Shown here: in pieces, positions 1,815 through 39,545 of the stretch
Layout: each line of letters begins with the position of its first letter
Numbering within the stretch: position 1 is the stretch's first letter
DNA from: Bartonella vinsonii subsp. arupensis OK-94-513
GTDB taxonomy: Bacteria; Pseudomonadota; Alphaproteobacteria; Rhizobiales; Rhizobiaceae
Direction: 5' to 3'
Assembly (NCBI RefSeq): GCF_000278235.1
Contig: NZ_JH725037.1
Span: 1,038,467-1,102,466, forward strand
Length of the DNA stretch: 64,000 nucleotides
The notes under the pieces: generated by a model
Databases searched by the model: none
Told to the model about the DNA's origin: nothing
Seen by the model: only the letters and a program-made list of their open reading frames with translations
Position numbers and translations under genes: made by a program

Positions 1815-2985
1815 TCAACCCCCAGTCACAAAAGACGCCCACTGTTCTAAAAGAACACGGCGCTGTTCTAAAAAATCAGTCCTCATATAGGCTTTTGTGA
1901 CTGAATTCCCCACTGAATGAGACAAAGTAAATTCCGCAATTTCAAATGGTGTTGATGTTGTCTCTGCTATCCAATCACGAAGACTAGATCTGAATCCGTG
2001 TGGTCGATAAGCAATCCCTCTATCTTTCATAAATTTAGAAAGCGTCATATCAGATATAGGCTTTCCAGAATTTCCAACAAACAAAAATCCATTTTTTTCG
2101 ATTCTTTTTGCTTTTTCAATGATAGAAATCGCTTCATCTGTAAGCGGTACACGAAAATCAAAAACCTTTCCAACTATCCCCTTCATGTTTTCTTTTGGAA
2201 TTATCCATATTGATTGATTAATCTCCTCCAACCGTATATGCCTAATTGGCATTGAACGAACCCCCGTTAAAATTAAAAGCTTTAAGGCTAAATTTGATAC
2301 AATATTATCATCTAAGGATTGATAAAAAGCCGGAACTTCTTTCCATGGCATAGCCGGAACATTCTGAACATTTTGAATAAATTTTCCTAATAAAGCTTTT
2401 GCTTTTGGTACCAATTACATATCCACATCTATGCCACGTGCTGCGGCATGTTTTATAGCAATATTCAAACGCGATAAAACCTTGCTTGCTGTTTCGTTTT
2501 TGGTTTTCCAAATAGGGGATAAGCACTCTTTTATATCAATCTGCGTCAATTCGGTAATTGCTACATCTCCAAGCTTAGAAAAAACATGCAATGTAAGAGG
2601 TGTTAACCACCTTGCTGCTGTTCCTTCATTCTTCAATTTACTTTTCTTGGCTTCAAAAGCGCTTAAAACAATTTCTCTTAAAGAAATACTATCAACCGCC
2701 CGCCGTAATTTTTCATTCTTTCTTTTACAAATCGGGTCAATACCTTGGTTTAAAAGATCACGGCAAGCTGTAGCTTAAGCCTTGCATCTTTTAAAGATAC
2801 AACGCTACAAGAGCCTAATCCCATTTCACGACGTTTTTATTGAAATCGAATCGAAAAACCCAACGTCCTTGATTCTGCGTTGTTTTAATAAGCCATAGTC
2901 CAGCTCCATCCGCATATTTACCTTTAGGTAAATTTTTTACAGATAAGGCGGATAATCTATCACGTGTTCTTGTTTTTCTAATCAC
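1815..2985 (-). pseudogene. tyrosine-recombinase (phage-type) integrase, inactivated
   Basis: Pieces of one integrase of about 390 codons can be followed on the minus strand. The N-terminal DUF4102 arm-binding domain starts at a GTG at 2985 (LSALSVKNLPKGKYADGAGL). A frameshift lies in the A-run near 2840, another near 2775 just before RDLLNQGIDP. An in-frame TAA at 2415-2417 separates the core-binding part from the catalytic domain (1815-2414). That domain keeps Arg in TGVRS, HGFR, LSHS and the tyrosine in AYMR. At least three lesions make a working enzyme unlikely. The gene starts 138 nt from the 3' end of tRNA-Leu, the expected arrangement for an element integrated into that tRNA. Confidence 0.85.
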
Positions 2986-3123
2986 TTTTTAAACCACCTT
3001 TTGAATTGCGCTTTTGACAGATTCATCAGATATCAAGGTCGTATATAAAAGACAATTAATTAAGTAAAAACAATAAAACAAGATAAACAACAACATCAAG
3101 TGATATTGTAGAAAATCCATAAC

Positions 3124-3208
3124 TGGTGCGGTCGAGAAGACTCGAACTTCCACGGGTTGCCCCACAGCGACCTCAACGCTGCGCGTCTACCAATTCCGCC
3201 ACGACCGC
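3124..3208 (-). tRNA. tRNA-Leu(GAG)
   Basis: On the minus strand an 85-nt class II tRNA begins GCGGTCGTGGCGGAATTGG. Acceptor arms GCGGTCG and CGACCGC pair, followed by A and encoded CCA. The anticodon loop TTGAGGT gives GAG. The variable arm is extended, as in leucine tRNAs. Its 3' end faces the broken integrase gene, so it is the probable integration site. No second copy of the 3' end was found by eye within the window. Confidence 0.97.
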
Positions 3209-3347
3209 ACGTGGTGAAGCAAAATACATTGATGTCTGGCTTTAACAAATCATAAAGCAAGGTACAAGCCTATTTTCACTTTCTTGCGATTTATTTTACC
3301 TGAAGGACTTATAACCCAATACTAAGCCGCCAGAACTATAAGCTTTA

Positions 3348-3965
3348 CTACGATCTTTGAACCATCATCATAAAGTTAGCCTGTGCACCTTGATCTTTTT
3401 CATAACAACCAAGAAAGTTTGTTGTAATCGTTGTAGCACCCTGCTTTTGTATTCCTCTCATAGCCATGCACATGTGCTCAGCCTCAATCAACACAGCAAC
3501 ACCACGAGGTTTCAGATGCACTCCCAAAGCATTCGCTATTTGAGCTGTCATTGCTTCTTGTGTTTGTAAACGACGAGCAAAAACATCCACAACACGGGCA
3601 ATTTTTGAAAGTCCAACAATTTTTGTATCAGGAAAATACCCTATATGTGCTTTACCAACAATTGGGATCATATGATGCTCACAATGTGAATAAAAAGGAA
3701 TATTTTTTACTATTATCGCTTCATTATATCCTGCAACCTCTTCAAAAACTGTATCTAAGATCTCTTCAACGGATTTGCTATAACCAGTAAAAAGCTCACA
3801 ATACGCTTTAGCCACACGTTTAGGAGTGTCTACAAGCCCTTCCCGATTCGGATTTTCTCCCACCCATAAGAGCAATGTACGAATCGCAGCCTCGACCTCT
3901 TCAATACTAGGACGCTTCCCAGATAAAAATGGATCTATCACCCCCCCTTTAATAACATCCTGCAT
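3348..3965 (-). CDS. folE: GTP cyclohydrolase I
   Basis: FolE converts GTP to 7,8-dihydroneopterin triphosphate, the first step of tetrahydrofolate synthesis, as a cytosolic decamer. The 205-residue product has the usual length. Zinc ligands are visible: Cys95 and His98 in SHCEHHMIP, and Cys166 in [11 protein letters not shown]. The catalytic segment around residues 93-100 and the conserved QEAMTAQIA stretch are intact. It is monocistronic and diverges from the IscU-like gene, with about 125 nt between them for both promoters. Confidence 0.97.
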
Positions 3966-22858: not shown

Positions 22859-25800
22859 ATGGCACGCAGAACCAAGTTACAAACATTCGAAATTGAAGTT
22901 GAAGAAGCTCTTTCAAAAGCTATGAACTTTGATTTTGATAATGCGGCAATTGAAACGATATCTTCCAGTAATTCTGAAAATGTCATTAATGTAGATGAAT
23001 TGATTCAAAAGATTGCAATGGCAGAGGAAGAAATCTTCGCGGAAAATGATACTTCAACGCTTATCTCAAATATTCATGATAATGCTGTTATTGATGAATC
23101 TGTTGTTGAACAGCTTTTTGCTCCAAAACCTAGTCCTGACCTTTCAGGTGGAACTGTTCATAATACAGTGTTGTCTACACAACTTCTTCCTGCTAATGAT
23201 GATATAACAACCCCTTTAAATTTTGGCTTATTAAAACAGCGCTCTACCTCACGAATCTATTGGTGCACAACAGCGCTTAGTGCTCTATGGGTAACAGGAG
23301 GTGCTTTTATTGCTAATAAGCTAGCTCCTGCTGGTCTCAACTCCTTATCGAATATCACCAACTTTGTTACATCCCCAACGGGATTAGCAGTAGCAGCCGG
23401 AACAGCAATTCCTATCCTTCTCTCTTGGGGATTTGCTCAATTAACAAAACGTTCAAACGAATTGCATAATATTGCTCTTCTTATGACAAATGCTGCACAG
23501 CGCCTCAGTGAACCACAACATATATCTGAAAAACAAGCTATCGCTATAGGGCAAACCATTCGTGAAGAAGTAGCCGCCATGAACGAGGGAATTGAACGCA
23601 CCCTTGGGCGTGCTGTTGAACTTGAAGCAATCATACAGGGGGAAGTCCATAACCTAGAACAAGCCTATGCTGAAAACGAATCACGCATACATACATTAAT
23701 AAAAGAATTAAGTAATGAACGCATAGCCATTTTGAATCACGCTGACCGCGTACAGTCAACAATTAAAGGAACACAGGAACAACTGAGTGATGAATTTGGC
23801 TTGGTTACCTCCAAAATTGTCACTAATGTTGAAAAGCTTGCACAAACTCTTTCCCAAACTTTACAAAAACAGGGGGAAGATCTTGTTGCGAAACTTTCCT
23901 ATGCAGGTGATGGTGTAACAAACCAACTTGTTGAAAAATTTAATGAAACCACAACCCAGATTCAGCAAAAAAATACAGCATTCTTTCACGAATTAGGGAA
24001 AAACTTTGATGGTTTCTCAGAACGTTTTGATAATAGTGAAAAACAAATAGAAAAAGCCTTCAATGAAACAGCAGCTAAAGCTGAAATGCATATCGCTAAA
24101 ATTGCGACGCATATACAAACAGCAACAGACCAGACTTTACAGAATGTTGATGAAAAATTTAAAGCACTGGATGAATCCATCATTGATCGCAATCATCAAT
24201 TTCTACAGAATTTTGATGAAAAAATCATACAACTCGATGAAAAAGCATACAAACTCTCCTCTAAATTTGATAATGTAACTTCAGAAGCAATTGAAGCTTT
24301 TGAGAACCGTTTAGCAACGGTTGATCTTTCTCTTAAAGAGCACAGCAATTCCATAATTGAATCCTTCATTGCTCGCAGTCAAACTCTAGAAGATAATGCT
24401 GAAAAGCTTGGTAATTTCTTAGAAGCCCACGTTTCGCAAATTAATGCAAATCTTCAAGAAAAAACAACTGATATTACCGAAGCATTTACAAATGGACACG
24501 AAACTATCCTTTCCGCAATTGACAAAAGCAAAGAAAAACTAAGAGAAGAAGTTCAGCATATCGATGATGCTATTATTGATATCATACAAGAACGTTCGCA
24601 GGACTTTACATCACAACTTTCTGATCAAAGAGCTCTCATGGCAGAGATGCTCGATAACGAAAAGAATAAAATCGCTGAGACACTAAAAAATCAAATTGAG
24701 GCGTTAGCTCAAAACACCTCAAATCTTGAACAGGCTTTGGTTGATAACGTTCAAATCGTTGATCAGTATGCTGAAAATCACGTTGCAAATATAGTTCAAT
24801 GCACAGAAAAACTACAAGAAGTCATTGTACAAAGTAGTACTACAACAAAAGAGGCTTTAGAAGCACAAGCTAGAAATATTGACATACGTGCTGACGCTCT
24901 GCGTGACTCTTTAGCTATTAATAGTTTTTCTCTTAACGAAGTTCTTGCAGATCAAGCACGTACACTCGAGCAACGGATGGAAACAATCCATAATCTCATC
25001 ACAAAAAGTGATATACATGTTGATGCTGCCTTAAAGCAACAGATAGACTTAGTTGAGAATGCAATTGCCGCCAATAATAAGAACATTACCGAAACTGTTC
25101 AAGGCCATATTCAAAACCTCGAAAGCCATGCCGAGGTTTTAAAGAATACCCTCTCTCAATCTAGTGGTACATTCTTTGAAACCCTTGAAACAAGTATAGA
25201 ATCATTTGATACAAATTTAGAAAACCGCGCACATAAAATTTTTGAACGTGCATCCTCATTAGAAGAGACATTATCCAAAAAACTTGGCCAAGTATGTGAA
25301 ACTATCGAGATGCAAACATCTGCTTTTGAAGAACACTCTGACAGATTAAAAACATCTATCATACTCAATAATGAACAAAGTCAGATCATTCAACAAGCGC
25401 TGGAAACAAACATTGGTAATATGCGCATCACATTAGAAGATTCGGTGAATACGGTCACAGACAACTTGCATAACAAAATTATGAAAGCCTCTGATATTCT
25501 TTCTTCTACGGGTGAACAGATACTTTCCTCTGTTACAAATGTTACTGCACAAGCAGAAAACATTCTCTCAGAATCTGGAAATTGCATTGTATCAAACGTT
25601 AAACAAACAGTTTATGATACCAGCGAAAAAGTTTTGTCTGTTTTTTCTGAGCAAACAGCCCATACTATTGAAGCCTTCGCAACAGCTAGTCATAATGCAC
25701 AAGCATTACTGAATGAGACAATTCACACTTCAACAATAACAATTGAACAAGTCCTTAATGAACGCTGCAATGTTCTTCATCACTCCATGCAGAATCTTAA

Positions 25801-27433
25801 AAATAATTTAGGATATCAACTCTCTGATGTAAGTAGCCGCTTGGAAGAAGCAAAAAATCAAACAGCTATTCAAATTTCAGAACATGTTGGAAAAATCACA
25901 GAGTTGACAAACCATTTAAACCAAGCTGCACAAAGTACAACGGAGTCAATTGGTTCTTTAACACAGCATATTGGTGAACAACTCTCCCTCTCAACACAAG
26001 ATGCCGAACAAAGGATTTATGCACACAGTGAATCTCTAGTAAATAGCTTGGCACAAACAAACTCTGAAACACTTCAAACAGTAACTGCTATGAAGGAAGA
26101 TCTTGTAAATAATGTCTCCTCTATCATTGCACAATTGAATCAGTCAATTTACAGCTTTCATGAAAATAGTAATGTCTTATTATCAGCGGTTCAAAATATT
26201 GACGGTCAATTTAGCGAGACAGCAAACAACTTTTTCCACAACACTAACCAAGTAGCAGAGCATTTATCAGCTTCAAATCAAGCGCTCAATAGCAATATTG
26301 AGATTTTGCAAGGGCTTTCACAAAACACATTTGAACAAATTAGTCACATAACAAGTAGTTTCAGTAAACATGCTGAAACACTTTCTGAAGCTATTCAAAT
26401 TTTAGAACAGTCCGAAAATTCACTTAATGCAACACTTGAAGAAAAACACAACACGCTCTCTGGTTTAAGCAATGCTCTTGTTTCAAAATCTAATGAAATC
26501 AATCAACTGATTGAACATTATGAAAATGTTCTCAGCTCAGCGCTTGAACGCACTGATAAAAATGCACGTAATTCCACACATTCACTCCAACAATCACTTA
26601 ATCAGCTCATTAATGAAGCTTCAACCCGTTTTTCAGGAGCAACAGAAGATATACGTCGCTCAGCGAATGAAGTTCGTTTAGAACTTTCAAAAATTAATCA
26701 CGATATTAATGAGAGTGTTCAGAAACTACCTGCAACGACAAAAGAAACAACGCGAACAATCCGCACTGCTCTCAATGAACAAATTACAGCCTTAAAGGAC
26801 TTAGCGAATGTTATACAAAAAACGGATCAAAATAACGCACAAAACAATGCAAATGAGCAGCTAATATCGATAATTCCTACATCATCAACACTTCAGAAAA
26901 GGGATAAGAGTTCTCCTGAATTTATTAAAAAGATAGTACCTCCTAAGCCTATTTTACAACAAGACCAAAGCAAAAAAAGGCAAAATAAATGGGTATCAAA
27001 TCTCTTAGAACGCGCTTCGCGTGAAGAAACGTGGTATGATGAAAGTCCTGATGATGCGGTATTTGCACCAGTACAAACAAAATCGCATCCTGTAAATGAG
27101 TCTCTTAACACATTAGCAGCAGGTATAGTGCGAGCTATTAATCACAATGCTGTTGTTGAACTATGGAATCATTATCGGCGTGGACAAAAAAACATCGTGA
27201 CGGAACGCCTGTATACTTTGAATGGAAAAACCATATTTGAAATGATTAAGAAAAAATATATGAGCGATATTGATTTTAAACATTCAGTTAATCAATATGT
27301 TGCTGATTTTGAAAAACTCTTACGTGATGTATCTCACGGTTCTGGTTCTTCTAACTCAGTTCGCAAATATCTAATATCAGATACTGGAAAAGTTTACACT
27401 ATGCTTGCTCATGCAAGTGGTCGCATCCAATAG
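22859..27433 (+). CDS. very long membrane-anchored coiled-coil protein, growth-pole (GPR/RgsE-like) candidate
   Basis: The 1524-residue protein has an acidic N-terminal part (1-130) and two close hydrophobic segments at about 134-152 and 175-193. About 1,100 residues of heptad-like helix follow, rich in Gln, Glu, Asn, Ala, Ser and Leu, with no proline breaks until about 1,350. The C-terminal domain of about 110 residues (TLAAGIVRAINHNAVVELW onward) looks globular. This fits apolipoprotein-like proteins of Rhizobiales such as Agrobacterium GPR and Sinorhizobium RgsE, which organise the growing pole. Assignment rests on architecture, not on alignment. A terminator follows at 27444. GAGGCGAG before ATG is the ribosome site. 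Confidence 0.7.
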   Translation: MARRTKLQTFEIEVEEALSKAMNFDFDNAAIETISSSNSENVINVDELIQKIAMAEEEIFAENDTSTLISNIHDNAVIDESVVEQLFAPKPSPDLSGGTVHNTVLSTQLLPANDDITTPLNFGLLKQRSTSRIYWCTTALSALWVTGGAFIANKLAPAGLNSLSNITNFVTSPTGLAVAAGTAIPILLSWGFAQLTKRSNELHNIALLMTNAAQRLSEPQHISEKQAIAIGQTIREEVAAMNEGIERTLGRAVELEAIIQGEVHNLEQAYAENESRIHTLIKELSNERIAILNHADRVQSTIKGTQEQLSDEFGLVTSKIVTNVEKLAQTLSQTLQKQGEDLVAKLSYAGDGVTNQLVEKFNETTTQIQQKNTAFFHELGKNFDGFSERFDNSEKQIEKAFNETAAKAEMHIAKIATHIQTATDQTLQNVDEKFKALDESIIDRNHQFLQNFDEKIIQLDEKAYKLSSKFDNVTSEAIEAFENRLATVDLSLKEHSNSIIESFIARSQTLEDNAEKLGNFLEAHVSQINANLQEKTTDITEAFTNGHETILSAIDKSKEKLREEVQHIDDAIIDIIQERSQDFTSQLSDQRALMAEMLDNEKNKIAETLKNQIEALAQNTSNLEQALVDNVQIVDQYAENHVANIVQCTEKLQEVIVQSSTTTKEALEAQARNIDIRADALRDSLAINSFSLNEVLADQARTLEQRMETIHNLITKSDIHVDAALKQQIDLVENAIAANNKNITETVQGHIQNLESHAEVLKNTLSQSSGTFFETLETSIESFDTNLENRAHKIFERASSLEETLSKKLGQVCETIEMQTSAFEEHSDRLKTSIILNNEQSQIIQQALETNIGNMRITLEDSVNTVTDNLHNKIMKASDILSSTGEQILSSVTNVTAQAENILSESGNCIVSNVKQTVYDTSEKVLSVFSEQTAHTIEAFATASHNAQALLNETIHTSTITIEQVLNERCNVLHHSMQNLKNNLGYQLSDVSSRLEEAKNQTAIQISEHVGKITELTNHLNQAAQSTTESIGSLTQHIGEQLSLSTQDAEQRIYAHSESLVNSLAQTNSETLQTVTAMKEDLVNNVSSIIAQLNQSIYSFHENSNVLLSAVQNIDGQFSETANNFFHNTNQVAEHLSASNQALNSNIEILQGLSQNTFEQISHITSSFSKHAETLSEAIQILEQSENSLNATLEEKHNTLSGLSNALVSKSNEINQLIEHYENVLSSALERTDKNARNSTHSLQQSLNQLINEASTRFSGATEDIRRSANEVRLELSKINHDINESVQKLPATTKETTRTIRTALNEQITALKDLANVIQKTDQNNAQNNANEQLISIIPTSSTLQKRDKSSPEFIKKIVPPKPILQQDQSKKRQNKWVSNLLERASREETWYDESPDDAVFAPVQTKSHPVNESLNTLAAGIVRAINHNAVVELWNHYRRGQKNIVTERLYTLNGKTIFEMIKKKYMSDIDFKHSVNQYVADFEKLLRDVSHGSGSSNSVRKYLISDTGKVYTMLAHASGRIQ

Positions 27434-38222: not shown

Positions 38223-38831
38223 CCACACAAGTTATTTTACTTGCAGAAAGTGAGTGGAACATACGGTTGACTTTTCATTTGGTCAACACCTTTCGGAAAA
38301 AAATATGATTATTTCGTTCAGTTATCAATACTTTTCTGTTTTTTTCCCTTTCATCAACACTGTAATATATAATTTTTCTCTTTTTTGAATTTGAATAAAA
38401 GGAATATTAAAACATATTAACTGATTCATAATTTCTAAAATACAAAAAAGTGAATATTTCAAAATTATGAGAAATCTAGGGAATATATGTAAATCAGAAA
38501 AATCTCTTTAACTGAGCTCTTTATAACAGAGATTACAAAATACACCGTTATTTCCTAGAAGAGGTAGATAACTCTTCTCCAAAACAGATTCATAACTTTA
38601 ACTTAAGTAAATTTATTTTATTTAAGAGCATAAATCATGATTAAAAATATATTACATTTTACAATGTTAATATTTATAAATTTAAAATAAAATAATAACA
38701 ACAACTTTAATATATTTATATTATAAAAATTAATATAATTAAAATAAATTATTTTAATTTATCTCAAAAAAACTTGTAGAGTTTTTGCAGATAAAATATG
38801 TTTTATCTGATGTTTTTAATTGGAATATTGA
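38223..38831. other. 609-nt extremely AT-rich region upstream of lexA
   Basis: From about 38620 to 38770 the sequence is almost pure A and T. No protein-like frame is visible. A perfect inverted repeat lies close to the lexA start (separate entry). GAAC-N7-TGAC near 38253 resembles the alphaproteobacterial LexA box GAAC-N7-GAAC in one half only and is too far from lexA to call. Confidence 0.45.
38788..38809. promoter_or_regulatory. perfect inverted repeat just upstream of lexA
   Basis: CAGATAAAA-TATG-TTTTATCTG is a 9-bp perfect palindrome with a 4-nt centre. It ends 22 nt before the lexA ATG. It may be an operator or a 5' untranslated hairpin. It does not match the GTTC-N7-GTTC LexA box known in alphaproteobacteria. 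Confidence 0.5.
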
Positions 38832-39545
38832 ATGCTGACATGTAAACAATATGAGCTCCTCTTATTCATTCATAATCACATGAAAGAAACAGGTATTCCA
38901 CCCTCTTTTGAGGAAATGAAAATTGCATTAGAGCTTTCTTCAAAGTCTGGAATTCATAAACTCATTATAGCGTTAGAACAAAGAGGTTTTATACGCCGTT
39001 TGCCAAATCGTGCCCGTGCAGTAGAAGTGATTCGACTCCCTGAGAAAATAACCTTTAATCTTTCTTTAGCGCGTAAAATTTCTCCTAGTATGATAGAAAA
39101 AAATAAAAGAAAAACATCGAAAAACTTTAATGATCTTGATAATTTTGAAGTAGAAGAGAAAAAAAATGTCATTATCCCTATTATGGGGCGCATTGCTGCA
39201 AGTGTGCCTGTCTCCGCTATATTACAACAAATAAATACACTTTCTTTACCAAAAAATATGATTAATTCGGGTGAGCACTATGCTTTAGAAGTCAAAGATG
39301 ATTCTATGATTGAAGCTGGTATTCTTGAGAAAGATATTATAATTGTTAAACGTCAAAGTACAGCAATGTCAGGTGAAATTATTGTCGCATTTATTGATAA
39401 AGAAGAAGCAACCTTAAAACGTTATCGACGAAAAGGAGCCTCTATTGCATTAGAGGCTGCAAATCCTCATTATGAAACACGGATATATGGATCAGAGCAT
39501 GTACAGATACAAGGTAAGCTTATCGGACTTATTCGCAAATATTAA
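38832..39545 (+). CDS. lexA: LexA repressor (SOS response)
   Basis: LexA represses DNA-damage genes until RecA filaments trigger its self-cleavage. The 237-residue protein has the winged-helix DNA-binding domain (about 1-65) with [22 protein letters not shown] split across the helix-turn-helix. A linker is followed by the S24 peptidase domain with nucleophile Ser158 ([10 protein letters not shown]) and Lys196 (EATLKRY). The scissile site normally reads Ala-Gly; here it is Ala123-Ser124 in [10 protein letters not shown], from a single G to A change at 39201. The catalytic serine motif is also VKDDSM where VKGDSM is common. Cleavage may be slower. Confidence 0.96.

Follow-up and report, generated by a model that had tools for sequence, protein, structure and literature searches.

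The window, the whole 64,000-nucleotide stretch of Bartonella vinsonii subsp. arupensis DNA analysed here, carries a lexA coding sequence of 237 aa (38832..39545, + strand) in a genome of 1,786,506 bases. The product belongs to LexA by profile, scoring 163 bits against the TIGR00498 equivalog (cut-off 110.95), with PF01726 and PF00717 both above their cut-offs. Its N-terminal DNA-binding domain, taken as residues 1-70 (38832..39041, +; PF01726 covers residues 2-63), is still constrained. The Ser-Lys catalytic dyad is present, with Ser158 (39303..39305, +) and Lys196 (39417..39419, +) aligning with E. coli Ser119 and Lys156. The scissile pair is Ala123-Ser124 (P1-P1', 39198..39203, +), preceded by Ala122 at P2 (39195..39197, +). 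PDB alignments place it at residues 84-85 of E. coli LexA, and its codons are GCA for Ala123 (39198-39200) and AGT for Ser124 (39201-39203), as a sequence-only reading of the window had given them, correctly to the base. Two residues before the catalytic Ser, Asp156 (39297..39299, +) replaces an invariant Gly (E. coli Gly117). The lexA promoter retains an SOS box in eroded form, GAGTTTTTGCAGATA (38779..38793, +), which aligns as a remnant with the GAACN7GAAC box of a sister clade described below.

All 25 relatives found with a name are Bartonella; B. vinsonii subsp. vinsonii is the nearest, with a LexA 95% identical. An AlphaFold2 model has a mean pLDDT of 46, with most of the C-terminal domain below 50, too low to be informative. 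Elsewhere in the window lie a 199-aa phage integrase family protein (1815-2414, -; PF00589) near a tRNA-Leu (3124-3208), and a 1524-aa protein (22859-27433, +) with four apolipoprotein A1/A4/E-like stretches (PF01442), which is probably a long coiled coil.

An altered self-cleavage site in one clade of Bartonella

A genus search covered 71 genomes, comprising 60 with an intact lexA, three with a frameshifted lexA (excluded from the site counts) and 8 without a match. A recA+rimO tree of 69 genomes divides into a sister clade of 13, probably the insect-gut Bartonella, and a large clade of 56 containing the window species, labelled eu-Bartonella here; support is 100/100 on both sides. G085 was left out of the tree and brings eu-Bartonella to 57; G089 is absent from it and was assigned to the sister clade from its LexA and lexA box, giving a total of 14. 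For comparison we assembled 117 LexA proteins from non-Bartonella Pseudomonadota, 90 of them the best-scoring full-length proteins among the 126 genomes matched in a class search and 27 new ones from 75 in a phylum search.

The Ala-Gly pair at P1-P1', the Gly two before the nucleophile, the catalytic Ser and the catalytic Lys are each found in 117/117 of these outside proteins. The P2-P1-P1' residues of the 60 intact Bartonella LexA are AAG in 23, SAS in 20, AAS in 8, ATG in 4, AAA in 2, and ASG, GAS and AAN in 1 each. All 14 sister-clade proteins read AAG, so that P1' is Gly in 14/14 there. Ser occupies P1' in 29 of the 46 eu-Bartonella LexA and Gly in 14; two have Ala there (B. koehlerae, L050, and G087) and one has Asn. 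Five of the 46 keep the P1' Gly and have Thr or Ser in place of Ala at P1, and P2 is Ser in 20/46 and Gly in 1/46. Because 37/46 eu-Bartonella LexA depart from Ala-Gly at P1 or P1' and 0/117 outside proteins do so, the Ala-Ser pair reflects more than chance. The alignment of relatives that the sequence-only reading had proposed as a check bears out the observation itself: Ala-Ser is real and unusual.

The same reading had traced Ser124 to a lone G to A change at 39201 and had named a read error at that base as grounds for rejecting it. AGT is one base away from a glycine codon, but the codons GCTGCAAGT recur in B. vinsonii subsp. vinsonii, B. vinsonii subsp. berkhoffii, B. sp. 220B, B. taylorii and B. 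phoceensis. Since these separate assemblies of related species share the codon, a sequencing error is excluded and a private point mutation has practically no probability left. What had looked like one substitution in one genome is a clade trait in which several positions around self-cleavage are altered. The pre-nucleophile Gly is Asp in 40/46 eu-Bartonella LexA and Gly in 14/14 sister-clade and 117/117 outside proteins, and all 29 LexA with Ser at P1' also bear the equivalent of Asp156.

The catalytic Ser is kept in 46/46 eu-Bartonella LexA and the catalytic Lys in 45/46. The exception, L116 (G075), has Arg for the Lys (LRRY) and otherwise an Ala-Gly site. The protein with Asn at P1', L104 (G061), also departs two residues ahead of the catalytic Lys, where Ala replaces an invariant Thr.

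PMC8565304 and PMC10020695 describe an Ala-Gly bond, with Cys-Gly instead in UmuD, as the general rule of the family. The window LexA has neither of these bonds, which characterize self-cleaving S24 repressors, and it retains Ser158, whereas an inactive LexA of the Synechocystis type has lost the catalytic Ser. We class it as a LexA orthologue and not as a self-cleaving LexA, because its Ala-Ser stands against Ala-Gly throughout the outside set.

SOS operators and Y-family polymerases

A GAACN7GAAC box precedes lexA in 14/14 sister-clade genomes and in 1/46 eu-Bartonella with an intact lexA (G029), two of the 46 offering just 230 and 143 bases of upstream sequence. Basal eu-Bartonella species show graded remnants of the box. 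At recA, which was seen in 61/71 genomes, the box is present in 11/13 sister-clade genomes, with the other two (G017 and G011) at contig ends, and in 0/48 eu-Bartonella examined. For ssb, seen in 21 genomes with G006 unread, the box lies upstream in 4/4 readable sister-clade genomes, all with a divergent uvrA, and in 0/16 eu-Bartonella, of which 14 have the divergent uvrA (not G074 and G004). The window genome has no GAACN7GAAC within 400 bases upstream of lexA and none within 600 bases of recA, and so lacks the pair of operators that marks an alphaproteobacterial SOS LexA. The 5' end of eu-Bartonella recA is rewritten, without the sister-clade ATG start (loci L069-L085), and a leader near AATAGTCTGTGAAAATCT stands at recA in all five eu-Bartonella inspected there, two of them lexA-less.

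Across whole genomes, a stricter form of the ancestral motif was counted against its reversed control. The sister clade gave 254 to 109 and eu-Bartonella 408 to 367. For the 49 eu-Bartonella with lexA, intact or frameshifted, the count was 373 against 319 (Wilcoxon p 0.027, from genomes that are related and not independent), and for the 8 without lexA it was 35 against 48. In view of the slight excess in the 49 lexA-bearing genomes, a few true LexA sites may remain. The window genome is at control level, with six GAACAWNNNNDGAAC sites against 7; judged by eye, none of the six neighbours lexA, recA, uvrA or ssb. A residual LexA regulon using the ancestral motif was rejected for this genome on the site count. 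The sequence-only reading's suggestion of slowed cleavage is reasonable to expect, but that it could dampen the SOS response is probably too mild, as with the ancestral motif there is no sign of a LexA-controlled SOS regulon to be dampened.

One site, GAACAAATAGAGAAC (L140, position 1501), adjoins a phage-type HTH repressor, and the same 15-mer occurs in at least several other eu-Bartonella among the matches listed. With that repressor alongside, we do not credit the site to LexA; it is possibly a prophage operator.

A Y-family polymerase (PF00817) was found in 14/71 Bartonella genomes, which are exactly the sister clade (14/14), and in 0/57 eu-Bartonella. When 12 genomes were rechecked with PF11799, only the two sister-clade members scored above the cut-off. 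The window genome has no PF00817 match and a PF11799 match of just E 0.35, below the cut-off, and thus no translesion polymerase of this family for an SOS LexA to control. The absence outside the sister clade is in conflict with Table 2 of a 2022 review (PMC9343593), in which B. henselae is credited with LexA, Pol IV and Pol V.

Loss of lexA and the other S24 repressors

In eu-Bartonella, lexA is absent from 8 genomes and frameshifted in 3 (11/57). Flanking sequence was compared for two of the 8 lexA-less genomes, G015 and G005. G015 has no lexA though its flanks match, and its sister genome G014 has the gene. In the G014 locus lexA begins at 1501, and the stretches 1-1020 and 2205-3711 of that locus map next to each other in L132, the G015 locus. 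In G005 the flanks match on both sides and lexA is missing. By parsimony, the state of lexA changed 7 times on the recA+rimO tree and 6 times on the tree of recA alone. An assembly error could lie behind some of the three frameshifts, since the gene is frameshifted in G078 and intact in the conspecific G031 (B. queenslandensis).

The only S24 match in the window genome is LexA itself. Replacement of LexA by another S24 repressor was considered and set aside, as two lexA-less genomes (G015 and G074) have no S24 match at all; G005 yields two matches and G032 yields three. Further S24 repressors, of phage-like appearance, occur in 7/14 eu-Bartonella genomes searched, and 14 of their 16 matches were read by eye. 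Eleven of the 14, including two identical copies, combine Ala-Gly with a Ser nucleophile. The proteins L363, L364 and L365 (G004, G067 and G077) combine Ala-Ser (GRVAAS or GKVAAS) with Cys for the catalytic Ser (GNCL). Four sister-clade S24 proteins comprise two with Ala-Gly and Ser, one with Gly-Gly and Ser and one with Ala-Gly and Thr; the last two (L360 and L362) indicate that scissile site and nucleophile are not always coupled. On these readings Ala-Gly is still largely kept among phage-like S24 repressors, and Ala-Ser there goes with a missing Ser, in contrast to the window LexA, which is Ala-Ser yet retains its catalytic Ser.

Selection and change within LexA

Outside the genus, 23 LexA positions are ≥98% conserved, 5 in the DNA-binding domain and 18 in the C-terminal domain. 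The 5 DNA-binding positions are invariant across the 46 eu-Bartonella LexA, and 9/18 of the C-terminal ones vary, the most altered being P1', the pre-nucleophile Gly, P2 and P1. On the recA+rimO tree, P1 and P1' account for 12/22 parsimony changes at the 18 conserved C-terminal positions. Adding P2 and the pre-nucleophile Gly, both chosen after viewing the alignment, brings this to 17/22. Only 1/3060 four-position sets matches the changes at 122, 123, 124 and 156, a figure to which we give no weight because the set simply gathers the four positions that changed most, two of which were picked post hoc.

P1' alone changed 7 times on the recA+rimO tree, where the mean for C-terminal positions is 2.9 (357 changes over 124 positions). 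It also changed 7 times on the recA tree and 4 times on a lexA tree built without the site codons; given 4 rather than 7 changes on the latter, its states may partly have spread by recombination.

Pooled pairwise dN/dS (NG86) was compared between the sister clade and derived eu-Bartonella, the sister-clade values being only approximate because synonymous differences there are near saturation (pS ~0.6 to 0.7). For the C-terminal domain dN/dS rises from 0.024 in the sister clade to 0.184 in derived eu-Bartonella, and for the DNA-binding domain from 0.019 to 0.073. The corresponding values are 0.022 and 0.038 for recA and 0.051 and 0.087 for rimO. As constraint on recA and rimO is also weaker in eu-Bartonella, part of the LexA rise is not specific to LexA. 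The pattern points to a C-terminal domain that is relaxed but not free (dN/dS 0.18), and to a selection that has released the LexA switch more than the rest of the protein.

Discussion

We consider it probable that the SOS circuit has been dismantled in eu-Bartonella and that LexA self-cleavage has been freed from selection there, the Ala-Ser pair being one sign of this. The operators and the mutation-making enzymes are missing alongside the altered site; hence the emergency circuit appears dismantled, with LexA lingering. RecA-stimulated cleavage would have ceased to matter for fitness, and Ser at P1', in a turn suited to Gly, and Asp near the active site would then have been tolerated. LexA would probably cut itself slowly or never and would be made without SOS feedback. 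Where it is kept, it may act as a constitutive DNA-binding protein on other targets.

For the window LexA itself, we rate slow or absent cleavage as the likely state, given the turn geometry, an Asp so close to the nucleophile and the missing operators. In 1JHF, an E. coli LexA structure, residue 85 has phi +79 and psi -24 at position i+2 of a type II turn, a class with ~68% Gly according to the relevant table of PMC10020695, in which the residue names are shifted. Since 1JHF is the G85D mutant and reads AAD, this geometry comes from a non-glycine residue. Glycine adopts such turn angles more readily than serine.

A point against dismantling is that the catalytic residues are kept, Ser in 46/46 and Lys in 45/46, whereas Synechocystis LexA has lost its Ser (PMC3091678). 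The same residues, together with the constrained DNA-binding domain, would fit a LexA in which Ala-Ser is still cut well, with the small Ser accommodated by an adapted active site to which Asp156 may contribute, and which still answers DNA damage through a different operator and regulon. Type I signal peptidases, which share the fold, accept varied P1' residues, and the presence of Asp156 in all 29 Ser124 proteins is expected if the Asp came first and was permissive. Asp156 is also found, however, with a P1' of Gly, Ala or Asn and with a P1 of Thr, so its pairing with Ser124 is not specific, and P1' varies even within the clade. A scan of P. aeruginosa LexA by Mo et al. in 2014 reportedly found that P1' prefers Gly. 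Since lexA, recA and ssb lack the ancestral SOS box and no Y-family polymerase was found, we judge this account unlikely, and we doubt to the same degree that the window LexA is cleaved efficiently.

Loss of cleavage might instead have been favoured by selection, so that LexA became a stable repressor with a new regulon outside SOS, as has been proposed for Synechocystis. The DNA-binding domain, whose dN/dS (0.073) is near that of rimO (0.087) and whose five outside-conserved positions are invariant, is in keeping with such a role. The repeated absence or frameshift of lexA, with its 7 state changes, indicates that any new regulon is dispensable, and the ancestral motif, the only one counted, is at or near control level. 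We regard this as slightly less likely again than efficient cleavage. A conjecture we hold as possible, while leaning against it, is that the eu-Bartonella LexA is naturally locked, having lost cleavage stepwise as the operators eroded, and holds a different, damage-independent gene set. If so, the genus would grade from an entire SOS circuit, by way of a locked LexA, to outright loss.

On the favoured reading, dismantling with LexA lingering, a clade that dropped the invariant P1' and pre-nucleophile Gly together with operators and translesion polymerases would be a natural experiment in SOS disassembly. Eu-Bartonella are predicted to be without LexA-controlled, Y-family-dependent mutagenesis, and the graded natural LexA alleles make the P1' glycine requirement directly testable. 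Among the titles listed by literature searches on lexA and SOS in Bartonella, which cover few subscription papers, none concerned the cleavage site of LexA in this genus or its loss of SOS.

The window LexA resembles canonical LexA, that of E. coli and the alphaproteobacterial form with GAACN7GAAC, in its two domains, orthology, catalytic Ser and Lys and DNA-binding domain; it differs in the Ala-Ser pair and the Asp two before the nucleophile, and in that lexA, recA and ssb are without the ancestral operator. It shares replacement of the P1' Gly with the uncleavable E. coli lexA3 (G85D), a laboratory-selected allele that carries Asp and acts with operators intact, whereas the window LexA carries Ser. 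In Synechocystis sp. PCC 6803, LexA has Gly-Gly at the scissile pair and Asp for the catalytic Ser and is described in PMC3091678 as not an SOS regulator. The scissile pair of that LexA is likewise naturally altered, and this source suggests that the host is without LexA-controlled SOS; Bartonella differs in retaining the catalytic Ser and in showing graded states and repeated gene loss across the genus. LexA is lacking in intracellular bacteria including Rickettsia, Coxiella and others, and Francisella has FddR, according to PMC13148647. Bartonella resembles these bacteria in its lost LexA control and reduced genomes, and differs in retaining the intermediates: most eu-Bartonella have a LexA that is intact though altered, and in others the gene is absent or frameshifted.
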